Positions 28-58,544 of a stretch of 64,000 nt of DNA are shown here, one piece after another. A program made the translations under genes and the position numbers. Below the pieces are notes generated by a model. It was not told the origin of the DNA, did not search any database, and saw only the letters and a program-made list of their open reading frames with translations. Location of the stretch: contig OY727094.1 in the NCBI GenBank assembly GCA_963402885.1, forward strand, positions 35,776,501-35,840,500, in the 5' to 3' direction. Source of the stretch: Antedon bifida. Its lineage: Eukaryota > Echinodermata > Crinoidea > Comatulida > Antedonidae. Numbering within the stretch: the stretch's first letter is position 1; each line of letters starts with the position of its first letter.

Positions 28-229
28 CAGGCCTTGTCTTTTAAGGCGAGTGAGTGCGATCACTCACCTAACACACTCCTAAACTGCCCTTGAGGAGTGC
101 GATTTACAACACGCCTTAATTTGGTAAACTTCTACACACGAAAATACAAACAGCACACCTACAGCACCCCTGAATGTATTGAGGAGTGCAATTTGTAGCA
201 CACCTATGATTTTCAAAAGACAAGGCCTG
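28..229. mobile_element. MITE with 15-bp terminal inverted repeats
   Basis: The ends CAGGCCTTGTCTTTT (28-42) and AAAAGACAAGGCCTG (215-229) are perfect inverted repeats. The flanking TTTATT at 22-27 and 230-235 looks like a 6-bp target-site duplication. No coding capacity is seen. It lies in a chfr intron just before the first visible exon. The transposase superfamily is not identified. Confidence 0.7.
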
Positions 230-326
230 TTTATTGCTAAATCTATTGCTAAGTTTACATGCAAACTTTGCATAATACATGAAACAAACATAAATTCACA
301 TTCAGTAACATTGTTTTTTTTAACAG

Positions 327-3300
327 ACTGTACATTAGAATACAACGTCTTGGCATCTAGCCAAAATATGGAGTCACATGACCCTCCATCAGCTAAGAGA
401 GTTAAATTGGATGACCCAAAAGAAGAGGTGGTAGAACCAGAAACATGTGAGGAACTAAAATGTGTCCAGACAACTTCAAGAGTTGTATTGAGTAAGGCCA
501 CAAAAACATCTTGTGAAAGTTTGTCTGATGTCCAGACAACTTCAAAAGTTGTATTGAGTAAGACCAGAAAAACATCTTGTGAAAGCCTGTCTGATCTCCA
601 GGCAACTTCCAAGAACATCCAGATCACAGAGGTTGCTCCATCTGGTAAACCCTCTGCATCTGATGAAAGACAATCTGGTTTGCCAGATGTCGTTGACACC
701 AGTAAAGCTGGTCCATCAACTGAGAACAGACGAGATGACATGGAAGAGACGCTGCTATGTAGTATTTGTCAGGACATTTTACACAATGCAGTCAGGTATG
801 TTTTATGTGCATTTTCAGAAATAATAACATTTACCTTTTGTTATCTAATTATGCCTCCAGATGCTGTTACCCCATGGTTTTAAGTAATTAGTTATCCGCT
901 TGGTATACCAAGCGGATAACTCCTTGTTATTGTATGGGATCAATAGTTTTTTTCTGTATTATTCTTGGATCCTTCCTTCCTTTTTGTGAGTCACGTTTCT
1001 CTAAAATGTGTAAACATAACATTTCATAACTTTGACAACATATGGGCATTTACGTGAAGTTGTGCACCTCCTATTTTTGAATGACGTCATAGTTGCGCAA
1101 CGTGACTTACGCGCAATTTTATGAATTTCAATGATTGATTATAGATTAAAAACCAAAAGTCATTTAGTATTGACACTTTGACAAAATTTAAGTCATATCA
1201 GGGGCAAACTTTCTACGGATTAAAAATGGCATGTTTCACAAGAAGTTACGCGCGCACGTGCATTTAAAATTTCAAAATGCGCAAAATTAATTTCTAATCA
1301 ACTTTTTATGCGTTTCTTGTCATTTTGAGCATGTCAAAAATTCCCACGGGCGCGCAATTTTTTACGCACGCGGTGCGCACGTAGCGTTAAAAACATATTT
1401 TTTTCTCTTGAATTATATTTTTCAAGTCTTTCCTAGTAATTTTGAAAACAATTTAGACCTTTTCCAGTTTAAATAACGCCATACGAACACGGTGAATTAG
1501 ACAATTCGTGCGCGTTTTTTATGAAAAAGCTTAAAAAATCGTCAAAATTATGTCTTTTTTTAAACAGTCATAGTTTCTAAAGTAAACCGTGAACCGTTTA
1601 TTTTTATTACAAAATCTAGAAGTTGATGAGTTGTAGATATCGGATCATGCATCGATAAGGCTAAAAAAACATTGTGACGTCATCGTATGGCCACACGAAT
1701 GTAAAATATAGGATTTTTGTCTCTTTCGTTATTGCTCATCACATTCAATGGAGCGCATCATGCTTATCTGTATAACTTTTTCTCCTAAATTTATATATTG
1801 TGTAGGTCAATCAACTTTCTTTAGCATGAGATAAAAATATTTTAATTTTTATGACGTCATCATGCCTAAAAATTTTAATTACGTGGGTCATTAATTTCAT
1901 CTTTATAAGTAAATTTTAATCTGTAATAGCTCGTAAGAATAAAATGTGATAATCACGATTAAAACGTTTTCTGGAAGCTATTGGATTGTAGATACGAATT
2001 CATGTAAACATTTTGCCAATCGGATGTTGTGCCGTCATCATATGGCCAGTTGAATAAAAAAAGTCGTATTTTCATATTTTGCGTAATAGTTCATCACATT
2101 TAAAAGGGTGCGCATCTATATTTTACGTATTCAAATTTCTTCTACACGTTAATATGTTGTTCCTGAGATAATTTCCTCCAGAAATTGCTATTTAAGTGTT
2201 TCATTTTGATACCGTCGCCATGTTAAAAATTGGAATAAATGGCGGGTCCCGTAATTTCACCTATTCTACACTGTATGTAATATGTATACAGATTATACTC
2301 TTTGCATGTATATACTATATGACACAAATTGACAGAATTCAGCACTAACAGCATATCATATTCTTCAGTTCTTGTCATAATGCCATAATCTTTATCTGTG
2401 TGCAATATTCCAACGTATGACGTGCACGTGGCGTTTGTCGTTGTGCGGATAACTAACTCGTCAAAGTGACGAGTTTCATGTCTAGTTTGTTTATTATAAT
2501 TTAATGAGTATTTCCCGGTATTTTATTTTGATATGTTTTTTTTTCTTTGCTTTCTTTAGCTTGCAGCCATGTATGCATACGTTTTGTGCAGCCTGTTATT
2601 CCTCCTGGATGTCTAATTCAAAGGAATGCCCTACAGTAAGTACAGTTACAACTTTTTTTATGAATAAAGCTGTAGTTTTTTTCCTGCCAAGTGTACCTGG
2701 ATAAACCGACATTGGCCCTTTCCCCACCAAGGGGAGGACAAGACTCGAAAAGTAAAATATCAAGTGGTGCTGTGATCTGCAACCATTGCTTCAAAATATT
2801 GGTACACTGATGTAATCCATTTTCTTCTTTTTTTAATTGAATTGAAACTCTACTACTTACTTTTTTTTAATTAAGCTCCCTTTATTATCAAACTTTATGT
2901 GAAAAAAAAATGTGATGTGTCCATATGTAGACATGATGATGTCATATTACTACCATATTCGGGCATGTCACAGCCATATTAGGGCACATCACACTTTTTT
3001 TTATAGTGTAGACAGAGCTTAAGAATAGACAAGTCCAAAGCTATTCCATCATGAATGTCATTGGTTATGAAGGGGGGTGTTTAAAATAAAACAAATGTCT
3101 CATAATTTACTAAAAATACATTATTTACTGCAAATATATAATGTGTTATTGTTTCTTTTTTTTAGTGCCGCACTAATGTAGATAGAATCAGTTACAACCA
3201 CATTGTAAAGAATCTGGTAGAAGTCTATTTAAAGAATCATCCTGGTAAGTTGGACTGAATGTTATTATTTTAAATTAATATTACAGTCATGGAGACGTTT

Positions 3301-17429: not shown

Positions 17430-17436
17430 TTATAAA

Positions 17437-17998
17437 TATTCATATCTTTCTGCTTGTTCGGCTAATTGAGCTTCGTACACATAATCTTCCCTTTCTTGTC
17501 AGCGGCTTGATCTACAAAATATCAAGCGATCTTTACCTATCTCATAAACAAATTATTTATAAAATTAATCAACTTGACATAGAGACAGTAGGTATAGTAT
17601 TTAGTGGGTGAGGGAGGCGTTTATTTTTTTCGGGTGAAATATGGTAACATGTATAATCAAATAAATAGATTTTAAAAAAAATACATTTTTTACTTTATTT
17701 ATTTGCGTTGCGTTGTAGCTTACGTTTTTGCGTTGCGGCTTACGACGTTTTTGCGTTGCGGCTTACGACGTTTTTGCGTTGCGTCCTGGGAATCAATCTT
17801 AAGCTGCATCGGGCTGCCATTTATAGAAGATGTAAACCTTCAACGGTGTCATTCAATATTTTACATAATTTGTAGGCCTAATGATCATATAAGTATAGGT
17901 AATTAACAAATACAATGAATGACATAATGTATCTTGGAGTAAGCAACTCCTATAAAGAGAAAAAGTAATGCCATGTGCATTATTACCAATACATTCAT
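17437..17998 (-). pseudogene. Truncated 14-3-3 copy: signal-peptide exon and broken exon 2
   Basis: On the minus strand, ATG at 17998 opens a hydrophobic leader (MNVLVIMHMALLFLFIGV..YS) in the same flanking context (ACATTCATTTTAAAAGT, plus strand) as the intact gene's exon 1 at 22350. The normal donor GTAAG is lost. A copy of exon 2 follows (17511-17438, acceptor TTTTGTAG), encoding YEAQLAEQAERYE. It needs a one-base frame change before GAA-GAT-TAT, and its donor site is replaced by AATATTTATAA, giving a stop. Exons 3-5 are not found downstream. Upstream, 18012-18070 also resembles the intact gene's upstream sequence (CTGCCT..CCTTC.GGT.GAAT). It is a segmental duplicate that has decayed. Confidence 0.75.
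17703..17795 (+). repeat. Short tandem TTTTTGCGTTGCGGCTTACGACG
   Basis: Three imperfect units of about 22 bp made of TTGCGTTGCGGCTTACGACG, ending in TTGCGTTGCGTCCTGGGAA. This is the terminal part of the GCGTTGCG palindrome MITE family. It lies in the intron of the broken 14-3-3 copy. Confidence 0.6.
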
Positions 17999-18277
17999 TT
18001 TAAAAGTGTTTTAACTTCACACGACCAAAATAAATTGCTGCCTCGCCTTCGGGTGGAATGAGATTGGTTTGTTCTACTCTCTATTTTAAGAGAGTTTATC
18101 TATTGGGGTTTTTTTTAATAATTCATGTCTTCGTTTTAGCATCAAAATGTATCGATTTATTCCATTTACGTTCTGTCCAATTGCGTTGGTGGTAAGTTTT
18201 ATACAATACATAAAATGTCACCAGGCTCGTACAAAAAAAGGCTGACGCTTTTAAGCGCACCTTGCGTCGTTTGTTGT

Positions 18278-18534
18278 AAGTACCTTGGATTTGGAAGTGC
18301 CTGGGATTTGGAAGTACCTGGGATTTGAAAGTATCTGGGATTTGAAATTGCCTGGGATTTGGAAGTACCTGGGATTTAGAAGTACCTAAGATTATGGAAG
18401 TATCTGGGATTATGAAAGTCCCTGGGATTATGGAAGTACCTGGGATTTTAAATTGCCTGGGATTTGGAAGTACCTGGGATTTAGAAGTACCTAAGATTTT
18501 GGAAGTACCTGGGATTTGGAAGTACCTTCTAAAA
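18278..18534. repeat. 16-bp minisatellite GAAGTACCTGGGATTT
   Basis: About 16 imperfect tandem units with variants such as GAAATTGCCTGGGATTT and GAAGTACCTAAGATTT. It sits about 280 bp upstream of the start of the broken 14-3-3 copy. The intact copy also has a minisatellite upstream (22957-23640) whose main unit begins GAAGTATCC. Confidence 0.85.
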
Positions 18535-19139
18535 ATATTTATTTTAATAATCGACAACAGAAACATGCTGATATTGTTCTTTTGTCTTATTGTTTTCTGC
18601 CGATTTCATGAACAATTATTCTTAGCCTAATTATTTTTTGCTGTAATAAAAACAAAGAGATATTTCATTTCATTTTCAAGAATATTATTAATTTAAATAA
18701 TGGCAAAATAACAATATAATCAACAATATAACAACTACAAAACACAATGTTGTCCTCACTAAATTGCAATACTACAATACATGATGGGTGTTAATTGTGC
18801 TGTTATAATGCATACTATACGCACCTGCTCAGTAATTTGTCATAATTTAATTTAAAATACATTACATTACAAATAAAAAATACATTGGCTTATTAGCACA
18901 GAAAACGCATGCGCAACAATCCACTTCCTATCCCGGTAACAGTTATAATTTCTTGTTTCAATTCCGATGGATACACACATCCGGGTATAAACATTACGAT
19001 GAGATACTTATAGTTGATATAATTAATTAAATTTAAACAGAAAAAAAAAACGCTGATAAAGCAAAAACTTGTAATTGTATAGACCCATAACCAAATAACG
19101 TGTATATTATATTAATTTTACCGATAATAAAACAAAAAT

Positions 19140-19216
19140 TGCCTAACTCAATCATATGCTTTATGACGTCATCACGGCATGAGGATGATCTATAAGCTTC
19201 TCCATTGTCGTTATCT
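19140..19216 (-). other. Candidate 3' exon or old C-terminal exon of the 14-3-3 gene
   Basis: On the minus strand, TTCTTTTCAG is followed by ATAACGACAATGGAGAAGC, readable as NDNGEAYRSSS after a D. A closely similar acceptor-exon unit occurs at 24090 (CTTTCAG then AAAACGACAATGGAGAAAC). The intact gene already stops at 19483, and a GT donor (GATG-GTAGGA) lies just after that stop. This may therefore be a 3'-UTR exon, or the acidic tail exon cut off by an acquired stop. Confidence 0.3.
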
Positions 19217-19482
19217 GAAAAGAACACAATTAATGCTAAATGTCAAAAATGGGTTACAAGTAACTTCGTGTGGGTTCAGATTTTGAAAATTCTCTCCAAT
19301 TCCCCTCACCATAACATCTGTTTATCACGCCTCCAAGTGATTGTGAGCATGCGCATCATAGCATATTAAAAAGTGTAATATTGTTGCAATGAAAACCAGA
19401 CTCTTCGTCCAAGATTCTTCTTATTCAAATAATAAGATTTAAAAATAAATAGAGTTTTAAATTGTTTCCTACCATCTCATTA

Positions 19483-22350
19483 TTATGGGATGTCCGAGGT
19501 CCACAGAGTCAGGTTATCACGTAATAACTGCATAATACGCGTAAACTCCTTGTAATCATCCTCATTTAGCGAATCAAACTCGGCTATTGCAGCATCGAAG
19601 GCAGATTTGGCTGACGTCATTGCACTGTCTGGATCGTTTAAGATTTCATAGTAGAACTCTGACAAGTTCAGAGCTACTTCCAATCGAATGGGATCAGTGG
19701 TTGCTAGTTTTTCCTCCGCAAGTGCTTTTGCTTGTTTATAGGCTTGTAAACTCGCACTTTCTACCTCTGTTCTCTCTGCCCCGGCAGCAATTTCTGCCAG
19801 ATATCTGTAAGCGTCTCCTTTCCTAAAAATATTTATTTAAATTTATATAACATTAACTTTTAAGTTAATTTATTTATTAAAAAATATTTCGAAAATTGCA
19901 AACGTTCGGAGTTTACTTATAGAAGACCACAAACATAAGCATGATAAAGTAGAAATAGTAAATTAATAATAAAAATCCTATATACTTGCATTCTGTAATA
20001 AATCACTTTATCTTCTTGTCTATTATTGCTTTCAGCAGTTGCGATTAGTTTGTCAAGTGCTTCTAACATACCTTCACACATCGCCTGAATTTCTTTTTCC
20101 ATCTAACAAAAAAGTACGAATGAGGGTACGTTTATTGTAGATACATAATAGAAAAATAACGCTTAAAAAAGAACGACGTTTCGACTCCATCATGGGGTCA
20201 TTATCAAGTCCAATGAATAAAATTTAAAAAAAACCCCAATTAATTAAATAACACAAGCCAAGGGTCAAAGTTTAAATAACAAAAGACAAATGAAATGCTT
20301 AGCTTTTACAGAGTCACTTTGTTTATTCAGACTAGGTTTTAATTGTCTGATATACAACATTTCACAGATAAGACAGTCACATTTGTTTTTGCATTTCCTA
20401 AGTATACTAAAACATGAATTAATTTTACTTGGATTAACAATCACGTTATGATCCTTTAAATGCTGTCCTATTAAACATCTACTATGTTCAACAATGCGTT
20501 GGAGAGGTGTCGGCATGTATTCAACATAACTTGCATCGCACAAGTCACATTTAAATTTATATACAACACATTGTTGACTTATAATAGTTGGTTTCTTTTC
20601 GAATTTCCTAATGGAAAACAATGTCTTCATCATATTTTATACCAGTACATATGAACTTAAAAATGTAGTTTTTAGATTTATATTTACTATGTCGAAATTT
20701 TATTTATTTATTTATTTCAACAATATATGTCAAAATTTCGGCCAATTTCTTTATTTTATTTTGTTACAAACCTTAGTTTTGTAAGTTTTAGCTAATTCAG
20801 AATGTTTTTCATTTGTTTCCTTCTGTTCAATGCTGCTGATAATTTCCCACGAGTCTTTTTTAGCTCCTACTGCTTGTTCGAAGGCGATTGACAGTAAGTC
20901 TCTTTCCTCTGTCGTCAACTCTACTTTGTCTAGGTTAGCTACAGCTTTCATTGATTCAAACATATCTGTTTTTATAAAATTATAATTACCAACATTCATT
21001 CTTGCAATGGAATATAGTTTAAAAGAAAAAAATCTTTAGCAAGGAATTAAGCGTAATAGCTATAGGCCTATTATGCATAGCACAATACCTATCTAATACA
21101 TTTAAAATGTTTTTAATCAAAAGGCAAATTACTAAAAATAATGACAAAGCTGTGGGTATCAGTGGCTGTATGTCAATGGAGATATACAAAATACAAAATA
21201 AAATAAGCAAAAAGCTAAATCAAAACGATCAACACTAGCCCTTCATCAATGCAAATGTTTTAAATAATATCTAAATAGGAATGGTACCAAGTGAAGTAAG
21301 GTGAACATTTGTGTAGAAGTAACATTGTGCTAAATTATGTAGGACGGAGAGAATATCAAAGAAGGAGACTGTCAACATCACCACGGTATTTTTGCAGTGT
21401 CTAGTAAGCTATAGTATGCCATCAAATATCAATACTTGTTATAATTAATACAATCTACGTATATACCATCATATCTTCTTGCTTGTTCGGCCAATTTAGC
21501 TTCGTACACATGATCGTCTTTTGATTTGTCTATAAATAAACACAAAATATCACGAAATGTTGTTATTTGAAACATTATTCATAAGGTGTAATATTATAAA
21601 TAATATTTTTAATGTATGTGCAATATTTGTATACAGTGCCTTAACTTGATCTATAATATTATTTTATTATATTGTACAGTATTAATAATGAATTATTGTA
21701 AACCAAAATATATGCATACATTAATGAATGAATACAGATGGGAGAGATCCATAAAAGATTTTTAAAAATATCACGAGATTTCATATGCCTTTTTTACGTA
21801 GGTAGACAGAAAGTCAGAAAGTGGGAAAAACAGTCAGAAGTTTATTTGCAGAGGAGCTATTTTTTATATATTAAATTAGGCAAACAATTACAATGCTAAA
21901 CCGAGAAAAACACACGTCTCTATATTTTGTTTCGGCTTTATATTGTTGAGCTGTAGATTGGTGGAGTGGAGATGTAGATTTGTTATTAACGTACTTGCCT
22001 TCCAATCCCAAAGTCCGGGTTTAATCCTGACCTAGTGCCAGGGTTGTAACTCACGACTCTTTCAACTCCACTCCATATCCGCCTAAAATGAGACTTAGTT
22101 TATAAGCATGATAAATTATAAAATAGTTTATCCATCCTGTAATTTTTTTATTTATTTATTTATTTTTTTTTTTTTTTAAGGCAAGTTACTCGCTGCTGGA
22201 TGGAAAAAAATATATTGAACATACTTATTTCAAAATAAATGATTATTATACAAAATAAACAAGAAAATACATCTTACCATTGTGTTGCGAGTATGTCACT
22301 CTTGCGAGGAGACAAAGCAATGTCACGCATACTACTGACTTTACATTCAT
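19483..22350 (-). CDS. 14-3-3-like protein with N-terminal signal peptide
   Basis: 14-3-3 proteins are dimeric phosphoserine/threonine-binding adaptors. Five exons: 22350-22278, 21529-21467, 20965-20772, 20102-19990, 19822-19483 (TAA); 260 aa. Exon 1 encodes [18 protein letters not shown] then TYS-QHN, a classical leader with likely cleavage near TYS. It joins in phase 1 to exon 2, which has no in-frame Met, so the leader start is needed for a full fold. The rest matches 14-3-3 (epsilon-like): [38 protein letters not shown], and [12 protein letters not shown] near the end. Arg154-Tyr155 match the pocket Arg127-Tyr128 of zeta, but Glu75 replaces Lys49 and Lys82 replaces Arg56. The usual acidic tail is absent (ends TSDIP). 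Intron 4 appears to be GC-AG. A broken paralogue lies just downstream on the same strand. Ordinary 14-3-3s lack leaders, so export is inferred. Confidence 0.88.
20168..20633 (-). mobile_element. Penelope-like element relic: GIY-YIG domain and hammerhead-like motif
   Basis: In intron 3 of the 14-3-3 gene, same strand. The open frame 20633-20265 reads [52 protein letters not shown] and [15 protein letters not shown]. This is the pattern of the C-terminal GIY-YIG endonuclease of Penelope-like retroelements. After the stop, 20215-20170 (minus) carries TTGATAATGACCCC, a short loop, TGGAGTC and GAAACGTCG, which looks like a decayed hammerhead ribozyme as found in Penelope terminal repeats. The reverse transcriptase is absent, so the element is dead. 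Confidence 0.7.
21080..21255. repeat. Dispersed repeat with CACTAGCCCTTCATCA
   Basis: Shares AGGCAAATTACT, GCTGTGGGTATCAGTGG, CAATGGAGATA and ACACTAGCCCTTCATCA with 53180-53310. The reverse strand has TTGATGAAGGGC, which resembles the CUGAUGA box of hammerhead ribozymes, but no GAAA box follows here. Lies in intron 2 of the 14-3-3 gene. Confidence 0.6.
21955..22095 (+). mobile_element. tRNA-like SINE fragment
   Basis: GTTATTAACGTACTTGCCTTCC followed by AGTCCGGGTTTAATCCTGAC resembles the anticodon arm and box B of a tRNA, degenerate at both ends. It lies in intron 1 of the 14-3-3 gene. Not a functional tRNA: the acceptor stem does not close. Confidence 0.35.
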
Positions 22351-22956
22351 TTTAAAAGTTTGTTTATTTAATTTTCACACAACACTGCTGCCTTCTGCTG
22401 CCTTCAGGTAGAATAAGAGTACTAGTCAGTGCTTATATATTACAGAGAGATTAAACAATAGCTCATTAATTCACAGTATTTTAATTAAAACAGTAAAGTA
22501 TCTTTTTATCGGTCAGTCCACTTTCCGTCGATTGTACTGTATATTACCATCATAATAGTAATTTTAAAAATCATGTTTAAAAATCATAAAAATGATTCTT
22601 TTATTATAATTATTATTATAATAGTAAATAATTTGTTATTGGTCAGACCATTTTTCCTTCGATTGTACTGTATATTACCATCATAATATAGGCCTCTGTA
22701 AGTATATTTTTATCGGTAATGGAATTCTTTGTTCGATTGTATTGATGCAAGGTTATTCCATGAGAACTAACCAAATGGAATGAATGATTTAATATATTAT
22801 CGTGCAGTATTTCAAACAGTTAACTTTCTTTTATATATTTTTAGTTGTATCTAATATATAGTTTTTATTGCATCGTATTATTTACTCCTAATTGGTGGTC
22901 ACGTGGTCACTGACAGTGGAGCAATCCGTCTTCGTATTGAACATTTTAGTCATTCA

Positions 22957-23640
22957 ATAGTTAGATCCATACTTAGATCCATACCTAGATCCACACTTAG
23001 AAGTATCTATACTTAGAAGTATCCATACTTAGATCCATACCTAAATCCATAATTAGAAGTACCCATACTTAGATCCATACCTAGATCCATATACTTAGAA
23101 GTATCCATACTTAGATCCATACCTAAATCCATAATTAGAAGTACCCATACTTAGATCCATACCTAGATCCATACTTAGAAGTATCCATACTTAGATCCAT
23201 ACTTATAAGTATCCATACTTAGATCCATACTTAGAAGTATCCATACTTAGATCCATACTTAGAAGTATCCATACTTAGATCCATACATACATCCATACTT
23301 AGAAGTATCCATACTTTGATCCATACCTAGATCCATACTTAGAAGTATCCATACTTATGTCCATACTTAGAAGTATCCATACTTAGAAGTATCCATATTT
23401 AGATCCATACTTAGATCCATACTTAGATCCATACTTAGATCCATACTTAGAAGTATCCATACTTAGATCAATACCTAGATCCATACTTAGAAGTACCATA
23501 CTTAGATCCATACTTAGAAGTATCCATACTTAGATCCATACTTAGAAGTATCCATACTTAGATCCATACTTAGAAGTATCCATACTTAGATCCATACTTA
23601 GATCAATACCTAGATCCATACTTAGATTCATACTTAGAAG
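22957..23640. repeat. Minisatellite GATCCATACTTAGAAGTATCCATACTTA
   Basis: About 680 bp of tandem units built from GATCCATACTTA (12 bp) and GAAGTATCCATACTTA (16 bp) in changing order, with ACCTA variants. Upstream of the intact 14-3-3 gene by about 600 bp. There are no spacers or leader typical of CRISPR. Confidence 0.92.
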
Positions 23641-24110
23641 TTTAGTTTCAATTTTATTTTATTGCATTCTGAATTCAATTTCCAGACCAAATTTAATTTT
23701 GTTATTGTAAATTCATTTTGATTGCCCAAAGCTGTATCGAGCTGTAGACACCTATGATGATGATGCCGAGTTCATGATGAAAATGTCTAATTTATACTCT
23801 TTTTTCTGCAAATGTCATCAAAATAAAGATATAAAATCCTGTTGTCCTCAATTCAGTAGAGTGTGTTGCAATGCTACAATAGGCTACATGTTTTAATATG
23901 TTTTTTATGCATGAGATATTTTATAATGCATAATGTTGTCATAATTTAAGGATTTTGTCTATTATTAACCAAACACCGTGCTATTATACCGATAATAAAA
24001 CAAAATCAATGATTGGCCTAAACTCAGTTGTCGGCTCTATAACAGCTGCAGGAGTGTGCTACACAGTTTCTCCATTGTCGTTTTCTGAAAGGAAAAACAA
24101 ATCATGGTTA
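23641..24110 (-). pseudogene. Relic of a further 14-3-3 gene copy (3' side)
   Basis: Positions 23986-24095 align with 19115-19215, the region just 3' of the intact gene: GATAATAAAACAAAA, TGCCTAA or GGCCTAA, ACTCA, and GCTTCTCCATTGTCGTT or GTTTCTCCATTGTCGTT, the last inside an acceptor-exon unit. The stretch from 23640 onward also resembles 16695-17050. No readable 14-3-3 coding exon remains, so this is only a footprint of duplication. Confidence 0.4.
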
Positions 24111-25568
24111 ACTTACTTTTTATACTTTTACACTTTTTAACGCTTATTTTATTGTTATTTTTACCCTTACTTCTCTGTTTTACCTTTATCACTTTTTTAA
24201 TGTAATTTTTACAATTTTTAGTGTTTTATGCTTTTAACACAGCTTATCTTTTATCACTAGAACCACATTGTTGTTTTAATTTTTATTAAATACTAAAAGT
24301 CAGTGAGAACATAATGCCTGTGTCATTGGGCAAATATGTATGTATTATCCTCAGTTTGTCAATAAATAAATAATAATACTGACTGTAGGCGATTGAGAAA
24401 TACGTCATCAACATACCATCGGTTTCGTAGGCTCTAATCTCACACCTACAAAATTATTTATTTATTTTGTTAAGTTTGGATCACACTTAATCTCCGTTCT
24501 GAATTCACGTCAACGTCAATTACAAAGAAAACGACTAAATAAAAAAATAAATCTTTTATTTTATTTATTCACATTATATTTACAAAACAAACAATTGCTG
24601 ATGTAAACAAAACAGAATGACAATAACAGTTTATTCTTTGCACATGTTTGCTGACGTCATTCTTTACTGTGCTTGTGCATAGAGATTATAATACATTGCA
24701 CTATGACGTAACAACACGACGATATGCGTACATATCATATCATATCACTTATTGTTACTGTGATTTTGTTGTTGATATTTTTAGTGACTCGCTATCGTAG
24801 GCATGTTATCTTTAATGACAATTATTATAACAGGAAAAGTGCATTAATTTAGCCTTTAGATAAGAATTCTTGTTTCAATATCTATAGCCTATGCCTTTTT
24901 AAATAATTCATTTAAAACATTATTTATTAAAAATGTGTTAGCTGCAATGCATAACATAGATATCAACATTGATGGAAACAATGAATATTGAACATTTTGC
25001 AACGAAAATTTAGTGCTTATTTACTTATGACGTCAGGTGTTACGTATCTATTGACATCATACGTTTTTGTACGCGTTTTTAGTACGTGTCAATGCGATGA
25101 AACAAATTTAGATACGCGCGCGCGTTCAAATGCGGATGAATATACTCGTACTTTTGACAAATAGTTAAAGAGAAGTTATCTAAAGTAGTTCTTGATATAT
25201 AAAATAATATAAACTATATTATAGTGACGTCACAGACCGCCTAATTTAACATAAATCTTTGTACAAATATGGCTAGCTTGGCTAGAATTCTCCCAGATTG
25301 AAGTATTAAGAGCACAAAACATACTGATGTCATAATAATACTGAAAACACATTCTACATGTCCACTGATTCGTTTAAATTTGGAATGAGTACAAATCTGG
25401 CTAATTATTTTTGTAATACTGCGTCTTTGAAAAAATGTAGATTTAATTAATTAATAATAAATTTATTTTAGCAGTGACGGTTTATACCTACATTTTTATT
25501 TGGTTTATGGACTACGTTTTAGAAGAATACTTCCTATAATAATATAATAATAATTCCTGTACATTCCT
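24111..25568. other. Intergenic, no gene seen
   Basis: AT-rich with a few TGACGTCA words near 24655, 25029 and 25226. No supported ORF. On the minus strand, possible AATAAA signals for the P450 gene (plus-strand TTTATT) lie near 25462 and 25495. Confidence 0.4.
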
Positions 25569-25862: not shown

Positions 25863-28800
25863 TTACTGTGTCCGATGCGACAGTAATATTTTGTGAGATT
25901 CTGGTTGCAGAGTAATTCCATCTCGAGGTTGAAGATTGATTTTTGGTTCATTCTCCGGAAGACTCAGATCAAACGTATGTATGAGATTCGTGTAGAACAA
26001 GAATACGGTGCTTTTAGCAAGAGCCTCACCAGGACATCTTCTATTACCTGAAACAGTAAAAACGATGCTATTAATGACGGAACGCCATTCTCAACTTTAC
26101 TTCCCGGTTTTTATAACCATGATCCAGGGAATAGATCTACCCAACAGGACACCGTGGAGCTGCCCGCCTTGCCAAGATAGGAACTCGTAACAGTCCTTTG
26201 ATCTTATGACTGGCTGCAAATACAAACAGCACTGTACACTATGGAAATATTCTCCGCAGCGCGCAGTGTTAGTTAAAGGGCGCAGAAACGATCGTGTCGC
26301 GGTCACAGATAAACTCTTTATTCTCCGGACCTGTTTTTTTATTTCCTTGAACTACCGACACTACGAGTAGGCTACAACCTTGCTTTCGGCGGATATTAGC
26401 TGTCAACGCGTGGATGTCAATAATGTCCGTTCTTGAATTGTAAAACTGTTTCCTCGATATTACAATACCTGTCACGATTTACCAGGATGAGGCACTGGCG
26501 ACAACCGGAATTGGAGACATCACTAGACCGCCAAAATATGACGTGGCACCGTCCGCGTTTGTTAACCCGAAGAAATGTATAGCCTTCTAAAAGTCGAATT
26601 AAATACCACGCGCGACATCCTATAGCTTGATTCTCACTTTGGACGTAACGCAATGACGTAATTAACTGCACCGCCGTAATTTGATCAATCACGACGCGAC
26701 TACGTCATTGCGTTACGTGCAAGTGTGAATCAAGCCCTGTCTTTACGTATCGCATAGTTACACGCAAACGAAATGAAGGACGTCGCACAACGCAATCAAC
26801 TTGCATCATCACAAGCGACGTCAACTCATCCGATCCGTCGCTTGTGATTGGTCAAGGTAATTTCTCTGTGCTTACGTACTTGCGTTGTGTGTCCCAGAGT
26901 GTTAACTTTAATTAGCCAATCACAACCCGGCAAACTATCCGTATGTCAGTGACATCATGCGTTACATTTATTATCATCGATATTTAAATGCGCGCGGCTT
27001 TTTCGGCGGTATGCATACACATGATGTTAAAAGATATAGCGTGCTTACCTATTCCAAATGGTATCCATTGTTTCGGGAGGATGACTTTGCTGCGATCTTC
27101 ATTCAAGAACCTTTCCGGCTTGAATTCTTCGGGGTTTTCCCAGGTAGAAGGATCGTGCAGTATTGAGTACAGGTTACCAATCACTTGGACGCCCTCATCG
27201 ATGTGGTATCCATTTAATTCGACTGCTTTCGTTGTAGAATGAGGTACACCTTGAATTTACAAAATAAAAATGTTAGCATTAAAACAAATACCACGACATC
27301 GCAATGAGACACAATTGATAGATGACATGTACGCACTTAATTACGTGTGCGCACTTAATTACATGTACGCACATAATGACGTGTACGCACATAATGACGT
27401 GTACGCACTTAAGGACGTTACGCACACATAATTTAAAAACAAAATAATTTCCATCCAGTGCAAATGCCAATTGGCAATTCCTATAGTCTGTGTCATCACA
27501 AATCGAAAGCAAAAGCTTCCGTTGCTTTATCGTGATATTTTATATAGCCCCGCCAACCCGCCGCCTACTTATGACAACGTATTATAGAACTTACCAAGAG
27601 CAACCGAACTAGCCATGCGCATAACTTCGTAAATAGTTGCGCACGTGTACGGTAAATTATCCATGTCGTCCAAGAAAACATTTCGTTGAGAACCGACCGC
27701 CGTGTCAATTTCCTCCTGAATCTTACGCTGCACATCCTGGTACGCGACGGTGTACGCGAGTAAAAACATCAACGTAGAGGACGTCGTGTCAGTACCTCCA
27801 GCAATTAAGTCTACAATGGTGAACAGTAGTGTCTCTCTACACATTGTCGTTTCTTCTTCATTATCATTTTTCCTGTTCATCTCTATGAAATACGCATCGA
27901 TAAAACTCTTAGCTTCGGCCGGGTTATCCGTAGAAGGTGGGACTAACCGTTCGTCGACAAACTGACAGAATTCATCATATAGTTTATGGAAGGCGTTGAA
28001 AGACGTACACGGGAGGTGTCTGAGGTAAGGGAGGTAGTTGAAGATACCAGCAGAGCCCATCATGTCTAAACAATACCTCGTGATTCGCTGAAGATTTATA
28101 AAGTTCTCGTCAGTGTATTCGAACCGTTCACCAAACGCAATAGAATAGATGATATTGGCGACTGCATTGTTGGTCAGCTGACCCATGTTATACGGTTTAT
28201 CGACCATATTCGATAAGTCTGATAGGTAAAAGTCCACCTCTGTCATTATGCGTCCCTGTATACTACGTCTACCCATTCCAAAATGGCGAAGGAGTTTAAC
28301 TGTGAATTTGCGATGTTCTTTCCAAGACTGTCCGTAATATGCACTTCCTATACCTATAAAAGAAATATAATAATATAATAATAATAGTGTATATTGGGAT
28401 TTATAGTTAAAGCGTTTAAAGGTCGTTCCACAGTTTACAACTTCCTGGATAGTATTGTACAAAAAGTGAGTGTCATTGTCCATTGTGTATTAACACCTTA
28501 AATTGTAACTTTATAAGCTTATTTATTGTAAACACTTTTAACAAGTCCGCGTTCACACTGCAGAATCTTGACCTATTGCAAGTCTAATAATAGACTCAGG
28601 AAATGTAGTTCGCAATGACCTTCATACATTATGTACTTGTAAGCATACATTATTATACTGGTATGCTAGACCATACAGAATATGGCCAGACTATAAATAT
28701 TGTACTGTGTAATTTTACCCCTGCTGATATGATATAGTTGACTACGCTGAGGCATAATGCCATAGCGGGTGCGTGCCATAGGCTATTTTCACAAACCGTG

Positions 28801-37696: not shown

Positions 37697-37726
37697 TTTT
37701 CTGAGTGATTATTCCAAATTAATATC
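37697..37726 (+). other. 5' UTR end of the PAP2 gene after a probable splice acceptor
   Basis: TTTTTTTTCCAG ends at 37696, a strong polypyrimidine acceptor. The following 30 bases contain TGA in frame with the ATG at 37727, so the coding sequence starts there, and an untranslated exon further upstream is likely. Confidence 0.5.
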
Positions 37727-38659
37727 ATGGCACCAAGAATCCACTGGACACAGGGCACTGCTGTGTCCAAAGTCACAAATTTTGTAAAGACGGCTCCGGT
37801 TGTCCACTGCGGGTTCACCGGGGCGCGGCGCACGCCACTCCTCGGCAAGATCCTGCTTGCGTTTATACCTTTTGGTGCTTATCTCATCACATTCACCTTT
37901 TATCACGACTTGCAAAAACTTTTAGGCTTAGACGAGAAGCATGTGAGTACAGCGTTTCTTCCGTGGCTCGAACACTCGTTATTTCATTGTTACCCACATA
38001 AGATCCTGTCAAGTCATACCTCACCAGTTTTAGATTTTATTGCGGCCATTCCATACTTGTTCCATTTTATACTGCCGTTGGTATTTTCTCTTTACTTGAT
38101 ATACGTTGGGAGACGACATGAAGTACCGTTGTATCTGTGGGTCGCTGGTTGGGTGAACTTTATCGCTGTTCTTGTTCAGCTTGTCAGCCCGACAGCCTCG
38201 CCTTGGTTCGTAGACTCTGTACAATATGACACAAATGGAAATATTATATCCGTAGCTGACAATGAGGCTGGTTTCAAGCGAGTTGACGCCATGCTCGGAT
38301 ATCCGTTATTTCATAACTTGTACGGTAAATCAAAAGTAAAATTTGGAGCATTTCCAAGTCTGCACGTGGCATGGCCGGCAGTTGTTATGTTATTTCGACC
38401 GTGGTTCGGTTACCGATTCGGTGTGTTCCATGTTTGTTGGATATTGTGGGCCAGCATGTACACTTGTCATCACTATCTCGTGGACGGTCTTGCTGGAATT
38501 ACGCTCGCTTACATCATCTATACCTCAACAATGAAATTATATCATCCGTTTCAATGCGAGCGAGAGCGTGACGTTGTTGCGCAAGCAGAGTACATACCAG
38601 TTACTGCGAAAATTCCGTTTACTGATACGTGTGAAATTACTATGCCAGAGAAATCTTAG
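37727..38659 (+). CDS. PAP2-superfamily membrane protein, AUR1 / IPC synthase-like
   Basis: 310 aa in one exon. The start is set by an in-frame TGA 24 bases upstream and good ATG context (ATCATGG). Several hydrophobic segments are seen (about residues 41-58, 102-127, 136-155, 214-223, 231-246, 253-266). Two PAP2 active-site motifs are present: GAFPSLHVAW (207-216, His213) and HHYLVDGLAG (248-257, His249 and Asp253, the HxxxD pattern). Family knowledge: this motif pair occurs in the PAP2_3 group, which includes fungal inositol phosphorylceramide synthase AUR1 and bacterial relatives, and catalyses phosphate-ester or phospho-head-group transfer at membranes. The substrate here is unknown. An intronless coding region in an intron-rich neighbourhood may point to retrocopy or old horizontal transfer, though an upstream UTR intron seems present. 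The charged C-tail (about 270-310) is likely soluble. Confidence 0.82.
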   Translation: MAPRIHWTQGTAVSKVTNFVKTAPVVHCGFTGARRTPLLGKILLAFIPFGAYLITFTFYHDLQKLLGLDEKHVSTAFLPWLEHSLFHCYPHKILSSHTSPVLDFIAAIPYLFHFILPLVFSLYLIYVGRRHEVPLYLWVAGWVNFIAVLVQLVSPTASPWFVDSVQYDTNGNIISVADNEAGFKRVDAMLGYPLFHNLYGKSKVKFGAFPSLHVAWPAVVMLFRPWFGYRFGVFHVCWILWASMYTCHHYLVDGLAGITLAYIIYTSTMKLYHPFQCERERDVVAQAEYIPVTAKIPFTDTCEITMPEKS

Positions 38660-42961: not shown

Positions 42962-45900
42962 CTATTTCTTTGCTGGGTTTATCCTCGTTTTAAACGCCAG
43001 CTGTTGACTCGTGTCACTCGTTTCATTCGTTTCATTCTCTCGTAGTTGACGCGTCACCTCATCAGTTCGAAGTGTAACGCCAAAGATGTCTTCATGATAC
43101 CGATGTTCTCGCTGAAATTAACAATTAAAAAGAAATAATGTGGGAACCAAGCATTTAATGATTTGACGATGAGTCATCCGAACTGTCGCTTGTGATTGGC
43201 CAACTCGCATGCGTTGCGCGTACGTACGTCGTTGTATTGCGTCAAAATGAGAACCAAACAATAAATAGTACAAACAATAAAAGTTGTAATCATGATCATG
43301 ATTGTTATTATTGTAATTATATAAAAAAAAATTGAATGAATGAATAAAGAAACGTCACTTACCAACATATTGGACATAGTTGTCTTAGCCTCCTCTTTCG
43401 TCAATCCATTTTCTTCTAGGATTTGTAAGAAGGCTTTGTATACACCAGATGCCATCGATACATCACCACAAACGAAAATATGACCATCATTATTCATAAT
43501 GTGATTGTAGAACTTAGAACTGCTTTGTATCAGCATATCTTGGACATACGTCTGAGAAGAAAAAAAAACCCATTAACGTGACTTTATGCGCATAGAATAA
43601 TACACCCACTTCGCATGTATATGTCAACGTGCACGGTACACGTTGAAATTGAAACGGAACAAACTAACTCGTCCTGGTGACGAGTTCAAATCTAGTTTAT
43701 AGTGAACGGTTGTATTTTTTTCCTTTTCGGACGTCAAAAGTTTCTCTTCTCCTCTTTCTCCTTCTTCTGCTAATTACTAACTTCCCTTTTAAATAATAAA
43801 TAAAACGAGACGATTCAAATCAATGTGATTCAAATCAATGTGATTATTATTATAAATAAAACGAGACGATTCAAATCAATGTGATTATTATTATAAATCA
43901 AGTAATAGTGCATGCATCGTAGTGAAACAACTTTCGAAAACATTCTGTTTTCTAGAATGTTCGTAAAAGCTAAATAATAAACTCACCTTTTGCTGACCAG
44001 GTTCTCTTGAATACGCGGTAAACAAGTCAGTAAGAGCTTCTCCGTTGAGGGCGTCTTGCATCTCATCTTTATAAATGTGGTCCATATCAGAACGTCGACA
44101 CCCGAAATACAGCTTCCAATCTGCTGACAGCTTGCCGTTGTTTTGCTTGTCATTTAAGTAGTGTACCCTGTCTTGCCAAAAGCCACGGAAAGGCGCAATA
44201 CCTGTGCCAGGACCGATCATAACCACTGGTGTTGATGGGTTGCTTGGGATGTGGAACGTACTGGCTCTGTATTTTTCATTAATTAGTTTTGTCAGAGAAT
44301 AAGAGTATATTACAGGTTTGCAATACACCACATGTCTCCAACATTTTACTCGATGTTTCAAAATAAAACAATATATCATTGTACTAAGAATAATTAATTA
44401 ACGCTGGCTGCTGATACGAATTAATACATTTTGTAAGAATGGAACCGAAATTTAAAAAAAGTGGTTTGTGATTCGTACCACCAGTAGTGAACATTTTCAT
44501 TTAGGCCTAATTAACAAAAACTGATATTCGATATGAAGTTTTAGAAAGTTACTTACTGCATTATTTTATATAGGTATGCAGCATTTTGCAAAGCTACACT
44601 AAATGTTTACTGAATGTAAGTTTTTCTGGTAAAGTAGGTTTACTCATATTTTTATTTAGATACTTACGATTTAGTATAAGCTGCCACTTCATCTCCCTGT
44701 TTTCTTGTGCTTAGCCATGTTGAGCAAACGCCATTGTGTTCAACACCTTGGCCCTCTGAAATATATATTGTTGTTATTGTTATCACTCACAAATGTAATT
44801 TAATCAACCGATTATTTTCGTATACATAATCGGATCAAGGCGCTATGTAACCAAACGATGTTCATATTGATGAGTGTAAATATCAACAAATTATATAGGT
44901 TGTCTTCCCCTCCTGCCATCCTCCACTCCTATACCAAAGTTGAATAGGACTTGATTGCAAATGGAATTGCCGTTTGTACCTGATTTGTAGAAGGGTCTCT
45001 CTAGCAAATTTCCAGTTTGAAGAATCGCCAATTAAACTACTTACCACGAGTTGTATAAATAACAACAGCGACTGTAAGATGGATTTCTCCAGGGAACATA
45101 CGGGGACTTGAACTAATGGAATAGTATCTAGGCTTTAACATCGGTAACTCTGCTATGAGAAGAGAAGCTGGAATCTCAACAGTTGAATATTCTTCCAATA
45201 TTTCTGCTAAGTTTGGGTGATGTTCGAACTTCCAATCTTCGTACAATGAAGTTCCCTTAACATAAATAAAAACAAATGTTATATTCACTGCCTCTAGAAA
45301 GTAATCCTCGATCTTATCGTGTCAAGTTAGCCTAAAGGTGCATTTATCATAGTATACTTACAGCGGCTAGAGTGTTAAGATTTTTCTTTTCATCTTCATT
45401 GTCGGTGAAATTAGCAAGCAAAGCTAAAAAGTCTGGAGTAGGAGGTGACGTAATATCCAGGTATCGTGATAAAGCTGTTCTCAATGAACACTGTGGCAGA
45501 CGGTTTTCTACTTTCCAACTTTTGACAGTTCCTAGAAGAGAAACCAACTGTGTGTGTGACCTACCATACATTTCTAGACATGAATGAGTAGTGAATATAC
45601 ACGCCGCTACGTTATTTCACTGTGGAATAATGTAGCGTCGTGTATTTTTAGTCAGTTTATTCATAGAGATATTATATATCTCTATAGTTTATCTTGTGTA
45701 AAGAACATTCGCTGTTTGGGGACCACCATTCTCTTGCCCCATCTCGAATTGATATGAATTCGTGGAAAATCACATTTGGTGGCGTGAACAGGTGTTTTAT
45801 CTTACATGCTGTACTTTTTCGTGAATAAATAAAGATTTTAATTGATATACCATTTCATTATTTCATGTAGAGTCGTTTAAATTGGTTTCGTCCTTTGTGA

Positions 45901-48900
45901 TTGAGTGCCTTCTTGTGCGCAAATGCATTATATAGTGTGACCGGAGCTTAAGTAGGAGAGTAGGAGTCTTAGCTTACCTAGGAGAGTCGTTTTCATTTCT
46001 TGCTTCTCCAACTTAGTGACAACATCTGGTTGAATGCCTTGTAAATCAGTTCTTGTGATTATTCGATTGACAAGACTGTCTTCATTGGCTGGGAATATTG
46101 CCAGATGATCTCCTGGTTCGTAATCCATGTCATCTAGGCCTCCTGTTGACATCTTCACTAGAATGGTAGAACGACTGAAAGGAGAAGTTTTTAAACTTAA
46201 ACATTCTCTCCTCTCTTGAAACGTTTTTCGTCTTTCCGACATTACGCTTCCCACGATTTGTTTCCATATTTTTATGTTTTGAGCAGAATGGTTTGTTATT
46301 GTGCTAAAGTCTACATTCAACATTAAAATGATAAAATGGAAAACTGGAAAGTGTTTTTAACTTTATTTCCTTATTACCTTCCAGTATAAGCTTTCAGTGA
46401 ACCTTGCACTTCTGTCTATTTATTTCCCGGGAAAAAAGACATATCCGCTGTTTGTTAAAAGTCATGTGCTTTTTTTTAACCCAGACTTACCCAGATTGTT
46501 CAGATTGCAAATTTTCTACTGACAAAATCTTGCATGCGCTGACTGTCTTTTTATTAATAGTGCCGAGTCCTTCTGAGACATCTATTCCTTTCTTATTTGT
46601 CTCAACAAATCTCCAATTTGATTTGTCCCACTGCTGTCCCTCTGTTGTCAACATCTTGACGGCTTCCTTGTAGTTCTCGTCGTCTTCAAGACAAAATTCT
46701 TCTAGCGATTTCTGAAATTCAACACAAACAGTAAAAATGTATGTTCTGCAATATTGTAAAAAAGAAGGAGCATCTTTACATGGAAGTGATACATTCTTTA
46801 CTTCACTGTTCTTCATTTTGATCGATCAATCTTAGAAACCATTTGATTTATTATCGAATTATTTACCTTAAATACATCACGTGTCCAATTATTGAATGAC
46901 ACGTCTTGACCTCCGAGTTCATCTCCTTCACCAACTTTAAAAATGCGTTCACCACCAAGACGAATGAGAATACGGTCGAGATCCTTAGCAAACGCACAGA
47001 ATTTAACGTACGCTTTGGAGCCTAAACCAAACACTGCAAACCTAAGAGAAAACACTAATACTGTTACACTATAGAAAATAGGACACAAGAACGTCTGTGC
47101 AAATATGGATTATTCGAACTGTCGCTTGTCATTGGTCAACTCGCTTGCGTTGCGCTTACGTCACTGCGTTGCGTCCTAGTGGGAACCAAGCTTAAGACAA
47201 ACCAAAGATTCATGCTTTTTTCATGAGGGCGGAAAAATTTATTTATTTATTTCGGTATAAAAATATAAAAAAAAGCAGCAATCATTGTATGTACATACTA
47301 AAAATATAAAACATTAAAACATTATGGGCTGCACATACAAGAAAAAACAAATACAATATTAAGCAATAGCAAAAACCATATAAAAATACCAATAAAAAAA
47401 TAAAGACAATTGTGAAAAAGGTAGTTAATTATTTGTTTAAAGCTTATACAAAATTAATTATTATTACCAACACAACAAATTGTAATTTTAATTCAAAAAA
47501 AAGAAAATGTGCCTAAGTAAATAGTTATGTTTCATCACTATCAATGTTGTTAATCTTTCTCTTGACCCTGTGCAGTTATTAGTATAGCTAGAAGTATAGC
47601 TATGATAGTTTTTTTCCTTCGTATTATGTGTGTATCACATTCTGAAGGTGGTGAATAATACTAGAACACGAAACATCATGATGTTATAACGTTAATTTTA
47701 GTACCTTTCCGTTATTATTATTACCAACAACAATACAGTGTTGTCCAAACAACAAATGTATACCATAGACTGAATAAAGAGATTAGATTTCTTTACAAAT
47801 GTTTTTATTATTTCAAACATATTTTATCGGATATTTAACCGAATCGCCATCTAGAACGTATTATGTTAAACATTTATTTATTAGGATTACAAAAACAACA
47901 AAGAAACCATTTCATTGTTATAGTGTTAGTAATGATATTGTTTATTTAAAGTACCTGATTTTGTCATGCTTCTTTCTATAGTTCCTGTACCAAAATGGGA
48001 TTCAACGTTACTTATTTACTATAACATTACTGTACTTAAATATAATAGGGATATCAAAGATCTGTACTTTTTGACAGAAAGTTTTCTAATATAAATATAT
48101 ATAGGGGGCGTTGTTTTACAACCTTCTATCGTTCAGGAACCCCCATTCAGCCAACCAATGAGTAGGTACGTAAATGAGTTGGAAGTCGAATAGCTTTGCC
48201 TATTTACGATTAGCCTCTTCTCTTTCTATTAAAATGTATGTCTTTCTTTCTATGTAATGATTCCAAATTTCCAATTGTAACATAGGTGAAGTGATTTTTC
48301 CATCTCCTCTCTAAATATCTGAAACGTGTTTTTAACCATTATTTTATTTCCGTTTTCTATTTTCTAAAATAAATATCATAAATAATAATACAACTTACTT
48401 TGGCATGCTTAAGTTCATTAAAGATCTTTCTTCATCAAGCATCAGTTCTTGCAAGTTCTCATAGAAGCTCTGAGAAATAATGCACATGCCAGTTTTAGAT
48501 TATTCAAAATAAAAAAGAGTGTAGATAAAGAGAGGGAGAGGGTGTTGTTGCACGACTTTCTCTTCATTTTCTCTTCCTCCACCGCGTCACCGACAGCTCA
48601 TAGGCGCGCGCGTAAGTGTAGTGTCGTCTTCTTTTATTTGACAAATTTATTACGAATACGTAGCGAAGACGTCAGTCAGCAAGTCATCACTTACCTCGCC
48701 GTTTGATGGAGGATTTCCATTGCCAAATGTACTTGTGACGATCAATAGCAGGTTCTCATTTTCAAGATCAGTAATATCATATTCCTCCATACACATTATC
48801 TAAAGATAAAATAATAATAGTTAAAGAGTTAAATATTGTATTTTGTATAGTCTCCCGGAGAGACCAGATAGCCAACACAACTGTTCTGGCTTATAATGTT

Positions 48901-54900: not shown

Positions 54901-57900
54901 GTTAAATGTCACTTTAAATGAAAACGTTAGTAAGAAATTCAATTACGTCATATACCTGTAGTCTAGACCACTGTATTCTACCAATGCATCGGGCGGAATT
55001 CCTCCAAGCCATCTTAGCTCCAAATATTAGTTCTTTTTCTGTGAGTTTGTACGTTCCTGTTGCCTCAATGCTCTCCTGTACTTCCTTCATCCTACCTTCA
55101 TATAGTGGGCTTGACCGTCTTAAAAATTGTAATAATGTTCGTAATTATTTATGAGTATTGTAAGTACTAAATTTAGGATGCCCAAGAACGTGAAAGTTGG
55201 TTATAATAATAATAATATGTATTCGGTCACCAATGAAAAATAACCAGGAGTGAGAATAGACTAAATACGAAACAGATTCTGCACTCACTCCATTTCAATA
55301 CAGTTAAAATAAAAACTTATAAAAGAAAATGAAACAGTTGTATTTGTTGTGGTGTAGAAATGGTGTATGGGGTGCAAAAGTTAAATTGTAATTGCGAAAC
55401 GGGCTTATAACATCTATTTAGAGACGATCTTGAGCACTTTGTGGTTATGTGCGCTCTATAAACCTTATTATTATTATTATCTTGACGTGGAGCGCAATTT
55501 GAGTTTAAGCGTGGCGATCATGGTACAATGGTAAAAACGTCCTTTTTAATACGGTCGTATTAATACTCATTGATAAAGTGGAACGCAATTTTCTCTAGCG
55601 TGGCGATCAAGGTACAATGGTAGAAACGTACTTTTTAATATGGTCGTAATACTCATTGATAAAGTCGACAGCGTGGCTCAACACTACTTCTTTTGGTCTT
55701 GGATCCGTCGAAGCTTTTTCTGGAAACATCATAGAGCCGAAGCAACGTTGTTCCGAACATGTTACAGTTGTCTAAATAGAATTAAAAAAGAACATTCGGG
55801 TTAAAAGCATTAGATTTTTGAATGATGCCAAACTTGATGAAACACAATGTCTTACTTCATTTCTGAAATTTGGTTTCCTAAGATGGAGACACAGTCTGAT
55901 CATCAGTAATTCTACATATAAAATGGTTCATTTATTGAATTTTTATTATCTCCTGTCTGGTAGAAGAGAATTCTTAAAATATAAGTCCATTGGCTTCTTT
56001 TCAAGGTTTTACGATCTAAGGAATGTTTTATTTTGTGTAACTTGCCTATTTATAATCAACCAACCAATCTCTTTTTTATTGTACCCATACAGAGTAGAAG
56101 CATCGACATAAAAAGGAATGTAAAGTATTAAAGTCGCCTTTAGATAAATAATAAAGTGTAAGTACAATAGGCCTACAGCCAAAATAGAATAAAATGTAAA
56201 GTATTAAAATCGTGTGTATAAGTACAATACAACCACCAGAATATAAAATGTAAAGTATTAAAGTCGTATGTATAAGTACAATACAACCACCAGAAAATAA
56301 AATGTAAAGTATTAAAGTCGTGTATATAAGTACAATACAACAAACAGAAAATAAAATGTAAAGTACTAAAGTCGTATGTATAAGTACAATACAACCACCA
56401 GAAAATAAAATGTAAAGTATTAAAGTCGTGTATATAAGTACAATACAACAAACAGAAAATAAAATGTAAAGTACTAAAGTCGTATGTATAAGTACAATAC
56501 AACCACCAGAAAATAAAATGTAAAGTATTAAAGTCGTATGTATAAGTACAATACAACCACCAGAAAATAAAATGTAAAGTATTAAAGTCGTGTATATAAG
56601 TACAATACAACCAACAGAAAATAAAATGTAAAGTATTAAAGTCGTGTGTATAAGTACAATACAACCAACAGAAAATAAAATGTAAAGTATTAAAGTCGTG
56701 TGTATAAGTACAATACAACCAACAGAAAATAATAAGGGTTAAATGAATTTAATTATCAACAATTTTCAAACCTCAATAGTAGAAGAAAAATAATATAAAA
56801 ACATAGGAAATTAAAACGGAAATGTATGAGGACGATCAAAGTAGCCTACTGTATATTGACCGGAACTAATACGTAACGTAGAAACGGAAATGTATTTATT
56901 CATTGTTGTGTCTTTCTCAGAATTCCATAATTATTTCATAATAAGAAATTATAGTAGGATAAACTATTATAATAATGTTTATTGATAATATTTATTGAAG
57001 CTACACACAACGGTGGCACACGTCATACAACATACCGCAACATTAACAATTAACTAGAATTTAATTCGTCACTTTGTCGTGCTATAGGTGATCATTAACT
57101 ATTGTTAATGTCAGAGCGGTCATTGATATAGTTGCAGAAGTAATCTGTTTGGGTTAGCGTACCATAAAAGGTATTTATTCCGATTGTGTTCAGTTATTAA
57201 ATTGTATTGTAACTATGAATTTGATAAGCAGCCAAATACCAAACTACAATTATCGACGTTCAGTTATTAGGCATAACTAAGTCAACAATAAACGTACTTT
57301 ACACGCATTTAGTCAAAGTCAACAACCATATACAAGTATTATGAAGATAGAAAACAGTATTACGATATTTGTACCTTTAAAGCTTGGTTGCCATGACTAG
57401 GACGCAACTCAAAGATGTAGGCACAACGCAAGTAATTGAATCAATCCCAGGCGAAGGATTATTCAAACCGTCGCTTGTGATTGGTCTACTCGCTTGCGTT
57501 GCGCGTACGTCCTTGCGTTGCGTCCAGTGGGAAGAACCAACCTCAAAGTTGAGAGTATTAGTAACATGGAATATTATGCATTCCATTTCCATATAGAAAT
57601 ATATAATGAGCATGTTAGGTATAATGTGAGAATATTTACATTAAATACGTACGAAGGTGACATCACGAATACATAAAAATACGCGCGCATTATCGATAAG
57701 CACGCGTGAGTCAAATTTGAATGTTAGGAAGACAACATACCTCTCTTTTTTGGTGTAAGGTATCGACGTATTGCTTTCCAGATGAAAAATTCTGTATCTT
57801 TACAAACTGCTGATGCTGTGCAGACGATTTGGACATGACAGGACATCCCCCAACCGTTGGCCCTTGCTGTGCAGACGATCTGGACATGACAGGACATCCC

Positions 57901-58289: not shown

Positions 58290-58544
58290 TATGTATTCGT
58301 CTGATCTGTTGACATAATAATAAGTGAAAATGAAACTACTTAATATGAAAATTAATAAAACAAAAGGTGCTGGAATAAAAATAACTACTGAATCAATATC
58401 TGCGTTTGAAGTTCATTCATTGATGGCATCGCAACATTTTTCTGTTTAAAAAAAAAAGAGGTAAAAATTGATTAGTATAGGCTAGGCCTACATTGGATTA
58501 TGCTATCACTTTTAACCTTGGATAGAATAATATTTCCTCTGTTG
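58290..58544. other. Sequence upstream of the NOS start, possible intron or 5' UTR
   Basis: A TTATGTCAACAG acceptor-like site (minus) ends at 58301, 12 bases before the ATG. The frame remains open upstream, so the first exon could be further out. No TATA box or initiator can be argued. Confidence 0.3.

Follow-up and report, generated by a model that had tools for sequence, protein, structure and literature searches.

14-3-3 proteins are highly conserved and intracellular, being cytosolic or nuclear, and they normally carry no export signal. Extracellular roles have been reported and are hard to tell from leakage or vesicle release. According to the accessible part of PMC11140979, extracellular 14-3-3s exit cells by unconventional routes, 14-3-3 epsilon acts in chemotaxis, and binding of extracellular 14-3-3 to aminopeptidase N (CD13) is cited. 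Among echinoderms, a sea urchin coelomic-fluid study (PMC8464700) includes a putative 14-3-3 epsilon isoform in its protein table; the available portion of that paper mentions no leader for it and does not specify whole fluid or vesicles. Two studies that applied SignalP to 14-3-3s report no signal peptide in their accessible text (PMC10178371, PMC10572514), and we came across no leader-bearing 14-3-3 in mostly non-subscription literature, echinoderm 14-3-3s included. The closest known counterparts, the extracellular 14-3-3s of PMC11140979, have no signal sequence as far as the accessible text describes them; the crinoid gene described here encodes its own leader. The likeness lies in a 14-3-3 at work outside the cell, which for the crinoid protein is a prediction.

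The window, a 64,000-nucleotide stretch of the Antedon bifida genome (C7:35,776,501-35,840,500; assembly of 315.6 Mb in 27 contigs), contains a 14-3-3 gene of five exons on the minus strand between positions 22350 and 19483. The joined frame spans 783 nt with zero internal stops and encodes 260 residues, in which a 21-residue signal-peptide-like leader is followed by a complete 14-3-3 domain. This protein matches PF00244 with 256 bits over profile positions 2-223 of 223 (cut-off 33.2), and its best PDB match is human 14-3-3 epsilon (E 6e-73). A Pfam search of the genome gave at least 19 exon matches, which resolve to the window gene, C7a and C7b (together spanning C7:119-129 kb, with C7a at C7:119-122 kb), one copy on C14, a zeta-like copy on C9 and four copies on C11 (C11a-d). 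These eight paralogues and human epsilon form the set of nine sequences used for comparison below. With human epsilon (PDB 8dgm) and C7a, the window protein has the whole 14-3-3 domain in common by sequence; it differs from them in that a leader exon replaces the start codon, the C-terminal tail is lost and the replacements K49E, R56K, R60E, V176E and L216R are present.

Exon 1 (22278..22350, minus strand, like all features of the gene) encodes the leader and ends at a phase-1 donor, GTAAGA, its final G serving as the first base of the following codon. Exon 2 (21467..21529) follows the acceptor TTTATTTATAG, takes up the same phase and starts the 14-3-3 domain. An earlier note had proposed this leader exon, donor and phase fit, and the joined 783-nt frame bears the proposal out. 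In zeta numbering, exon 3 (20772..20965) bears K49E, R56K and R60E, and exon 4 (19990..20102) has K120R near its end. Exon 5 (19483..19822) encodes the remainder of the domain, in which R127 and Y128 are kept and Y125A, G169E, V176E, C189M, L191S, S214F and L216R are found. The intron after exon 4 (donor at 19988-19989, minus strand) is of the GC-AG type, with AT at the exon end followed by GCAAGT, in contrast to GTAAGT in C7a and to the GT donors at the equivalent border of C7a, C7b and the C14 copy. Joined with an AG acceptor, it yields RMKGD, which compares with KMKGD in the paralogues. All splice sites of the gene are usable in principle.

A stop codon directly after WTSDIP means that the paralogues' C-terminal tail is missing from the window protein. 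A tail-exon-like stretch 3′ of the stop (19115..19240, minus strand) is homologous to 24111-23983 (71% over 136 columns), a tail-exon-like relic (23983..24111, minus strand) upstream of the window gene that probably belongs to a further upstream copy. About 80 bases 5′ of the start codon, a string match identifies a TATA-like ATATATAAGC (22431..22440, minus strand), which is a candidate core promoter. Intron 3 holds an open frame (20265..20636, minus strand) with zero Pfam matches, which we take to resemble a Penelope-type GIY-YIG remnant.

Exon 2 is the counterpart of the first coding exon in C7a, C7b and the C14 copy, with their start ATG missing. An own ATG is present in the equivalent exon of C7a, C7b, C14, C9 and C11d, lies a few codons in for C11a and C11b, and is absent before the first helix in C11c. 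The argument that the leader exon must supply the start stood in one respect: within its splice borders, exon 2 offers no in-frame Met. However, the Met-less exon is not diagnostic alone, as C11c shares it, and a leaderless start is possible on sequence alone because an in-frame ATG lies at 21575 in intron 1, 46 bases 5′ of exon 2. From 21578 the frame is open across the acceptor into exon 2. A cytosolic 14-3-3 translated from this ATG or from an unseen upstream exon, with the leader unused or confined to a minor isoform, would fit both this open frame and the precedent of C11c, for which no leader was found. Against it, the leader is the sole phase-1 candidate exon by the upstream rule given below, and both tandem units keep the leader together with exon 2; we regard such a leaderless protein as improbable.

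The leader consists of one lysine followed by an uncharged core, with T and S at -3 and -1; in a rule-based scan it shows the positive n-region, hydrophobic core and small -3/-1 residues of a signal peptide. Upstream of exon 2, across 3,971 bases, the leader alone satisfies a rule that asks for an ATG frame, at most 240 nt of coding length, running without a stop into a phase-1 donor with a score of at least 7. Over 266,610 strand-bases comprising the window and seven paralogue loci, a strict leader-exon rule matched once, at the leader, and four more relaxed rules, with the charge and cleavage terms dropped, gave 3, 4, 7 and 27 matches. All of these rules, the upstream one included, were devised after the leader had been noticed. 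The leader is among the matches in all three of the looser settings for which matches were listed. For the 4-match setting, with the leader counted, about one match per ninety trials is expected by chance in the 748-base intron. No second close copy of the leader was found in the genome with either the DNA or a 25-residue peptide, in searches that also missed the known diverged neighbor and so exclude close copies only.

That neighbor lies downstream on the same strand. Its leader, MNVLVIMHMALLFLFIGVAYS (17936..17998), is homologous to that of the window gene and has lost its donor, and its exon 2 region (17431..17562, minus strand) lacks a donor and has a one-base gap within the exon. Downstream as far as position 10000, nothing matching exons 3-5 was found; leader-bearing 14-3-3 units within this genome consist of one intact copy plus relics. 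Homology of the two leader regions extends over 217 columns (63%, E 2e-11). Because a homologous leader is shared by the window gene and the decayed copy, it is older than the tandem duplication, as the earlier note had proposed in treating the leader as part of the ancestral unit. Each unit also has a minisatellite array 5′ of its leader (22957-23638 and 18274-18527), and the repeated sequence is not the same in the two.

The two leaders differ at 22 of 63 bases with no indel, the identity (41/63) being about that of the flanks. By codon position, differences are lowest at the second (5/21, versus 11 and 6 at the others). When 22 of 63 bases were changed at random in simulation, the start, frame, core and cleavage context survived in 1.1 to 2.4% of trials, and a working leader was kept in 4.5 to 8.6% with the ATG taken as given. 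The leader has probably been under constraint. A leader-bearing 14-3-3 gene is thus present in this tandem group, with a probably exported product, and neither chance nor a plain pseudogene is a likely account of it.

Outside the tandem group, the closest comparison is with C7a, to which the window protein is 58% identical over 234 columns. The body exon borders are common to both genes, and the length differences in exons 3 and 4 are multiples of three. Only four blocks align between the window gene and the C7a region (E up to 0.001), all of them body exons that run on by no more than 56 bases into the adjoining intron or 3′ flank; the leader lies in none of the blocks, and leader plus flank does not score above shuffles. 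Since only the body aligns, the nearest relative found is the parent-like C7a, a cytosolic-type epsilon gene. An origin of the leader from a paralogue 5′ end was tried and is not supported: leader plus flank scored 35 with the C7a 5′ flank, where shuffles averaged 29.8 and reached 46, 28 with C7b (shuffles up to 42) and 34 with C14 (up to 48). Leader exons were also sought for three C11 copies, and none was convincing. On that contig, three tandem 14-3-3 genes at C11:20,025,503-20,032,105, C11c among them, have intronless bodies and, ahead of these, a TTGCAG acceptor-like site in phase 1. They evolve fast, with omega of 0.86 and 0.91 and dS of 0.12 and 0.18 in the two pairs for which these were calculated.

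The window copy has changed rapidly with its frame preserved. Across 228 codons it differs from C7a with dS 0.56 and dN 0.31, and the 93 replacements between the two, polarized by C7b, C14 and human epsilon, divide into 55 on the window copy, 11 on C7a and 27 ambiguous. A protein tree of the ten sequences gives end branches of 1.13 for the window copy versus 0.23 for C7a and leaves the fork on the epsilon side open. At 19 of the 79 columns that are invariant in the other nine sequences, the window protein is altered; equivalent counts for the other sequences range from 0/60 to 7/67, where the near-identical C11a-c shield one another. In a three-taxon codon fit with a saturated outgroup, omega is 0.59 on the window branch and 0.66 on C7a, with neither omega 1 on the window branch (p 0.49) nor equality of the two (p 0.95) rejected. 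Neutral change per codon in this fit is 1.23 on the window branch versus 0.48 on C7a.

Such figures invite the reading of a young pseudogene, a tandem duplicate losing function whose open frame has been kept by luck. The decayed sister units, the 19 altered columns, the GC donor, the missing tail and the failure to reject omega 1 would all fit, and early decay could account for the GC donor, the tail loss and some replacements, L191S and S214F among them. The 228 aligned body codons, however, contain no stop or frameshift, versus about 7.9 stops expected under simulated neutral change at 0.28 changes per site, a value assumed as half of the pairwise dS. The simulated probability of remaining stop-free falls from 0.023 through 0.0035 and 0.0015 at 0.1, 0.15 and 0.2 changes per site to 0.0005 (1/2000) at 0.28, with 0/2000 at 0.4. 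The splice sites are all usable in principle, and leader features are retained in two diverged copies. We consider a young pseudogene unlikely.

We assigned zeta residue numbers to the alignment, a placement that we take to be correct. By the available portion of PMC13067609, the phosphate pocket comprises K49, R56, R127 and Y128, and the groove L172, V176, L216, I217, L220, L227 and W228; N173, E180 and N224 are backbone-binding groove residues in the accessible part of PMC3690454. The pocket reads E, K, R, Y in the window protein and K, R, R, Y in the nine others. On the hydrophobic groove face, five of seven residues are kept (L172, I217, L220, L227, W228) and V176E and L216R break it, N173, E180 and N224 being present. 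Five replacements are unique to the window protein (K49E, R56K, R60E, V176E, L216R), the residues being conserved in all nine other sequences, and changes at columns invariant in those nine further include K120R, Y125A, G169E, C189M, L191S and S214F beside R60E. The protein does not retain the complete basic phosphate pocket of 14-3-3s; therefore, we class it as a 14-3-3 by descent and sequence, not as a phosphopeptide-binding one.

Changes are not clearly enriched in the groove (4 of the 14 listed pocket and groove residues, the other 10 being unchanged, versus 15 of 65 other invariant columns). Because 4/14 hardly exceeds 15/65, the argument from the pocket rests on the kind of change. According to the accessible part of PMC2956685, K49E takes out a crucial lysine common to every isoform, and most, perhaps all, 14-3-3 interactions are lost with it; in the available text of PMC3006207, trypanosome 14-3-3s with the corresponding Lys-to-Glu change no longer bind peptides. 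The window protein has the identical replacement at the identical pocket lysine as the zeta K49E laboratory mutant of PMC2956685, as that mutant is described in the part available; unlike the mutant, it is a natural version, found in an assembly, with a leader and further groove changes. The earlier note's proposal of an exported phospho-adaptor for extracellular phosphoproteins is not supported, given these replacements at otherwise conserved residues; its other suggestion, a new type of ligand, may still hold. Retention of R127, Y128 and the backbone-binding N173, E180 and N224 would suit an exported protein still able to bind phosphorylated ligands extracellularly. Against this stand the reported effects of K49E and of the trypanosome mutations, compounded by R60E, V176E and L216R, and two groove sequons could carry ER glycans. 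We judge continued phospho-binding very improbable.

We take R18, D21, S58, I65, Y82, K85 and E89 to be dimerization positions, with E17 beside R18. The first seven are present in the window protein, several of them varying among paralogues, and E17 is R.

Two features would matter in a secretory setting. Sequons at N173 (NLS) and N224 (NLT) are present at both places in all ten sequences, and ER glycosylation is conceivable here because of the leader, a cytosolic protein never exposing its sequons to the ER enzyme; both sites, which lie within the groove, could be glycosylated. The mature window protein has one Cys, versus two to six in the other nine sequences, and C189, kept by all nine, is M. 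The groove sequons and the low Cys count fit life in the secretory pathway and prove nothing. As regards the absence of a leader that marks the family, the window gene is an exception, having a leader-like exon in phase.

Elsewhere in the window, neighboring frames at 27569-28489, 43891-44397 and 45928-46356 (minus strand) and 37709-38659 (plus strand) match the Pfam families cytochrome P450, NAD-binding, FAD-binding and PAP2_3, respectively; the NAD-binding and FAD-binding frames resemble a nitric oxide synthase reductase. No Pfam family matched the frames 128-883 (plus) and 57711-58412 (minus), and no RNA families or tRNAs were reported within the window. At 56174-56732 a 54-base unit recurs 10.4 times (93% match), and two minus-strand frames of this array, 220 and 191 aa long, are open. 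On contig C27, mitochondrial COX1 reads well with NCBI table 9, the sole table tried: AAA is found for the second N of NNMSF and within RNVNTTFFDP, one S of PLSSG is encoded by AGG, and TGA occurs at W. We take these positions to be conserved, and the reading fits an echinoderm.

At roughly two chances in three, we favor an intact gene for a conventionally exported 14-3-3-fold protein that has lost ordinary phosphopeptide binding. Its origin would lie in a duplicate of a cytosolic epsilon-type gene that lost its own start codon and became joined by splicing, in phase 1, to a leader exon lying upstream; the leader-plus-body unit would then have been tandemly duplicated, with the remaining copies decaying. 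The product would enter the ER through a conventional signal peptide, with cleavage expected after TYS, and be exported. Its 14-3-3 domain probably still folds and dimerizes, with a phosphoserine pocket that K49E, R60E and R56K would reverse and a groove that V176E, L216R and G169E would re-charge; with pocket and groove so altered, ordinary phosphopeptide binding has most likely been lost. Transcription, splicing, export, dimerization, the loss of phosphopeptide binding and the ligand are steps that we infer from the gene itself. A dimeric scaffold or receptor ligand acting without the usual phosphopeptide binding would be its most likely extracellular role.

A broader version, in which a dedicated ER-exported branch of 14-3-3s had its pocket reversed by natural selection, so that an intracellular phospho-reader became an extracellular dimer with a new ligand and N-glycans on N173 and N224 perhaps fill the former ligand groove, strikes us as an even call. 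If the favored reading is true, the 14-3-3 fold would be usable outside the cell without phosphoserine, and this gene would offer a clean system for finding extracellular 14-3-3 partners.
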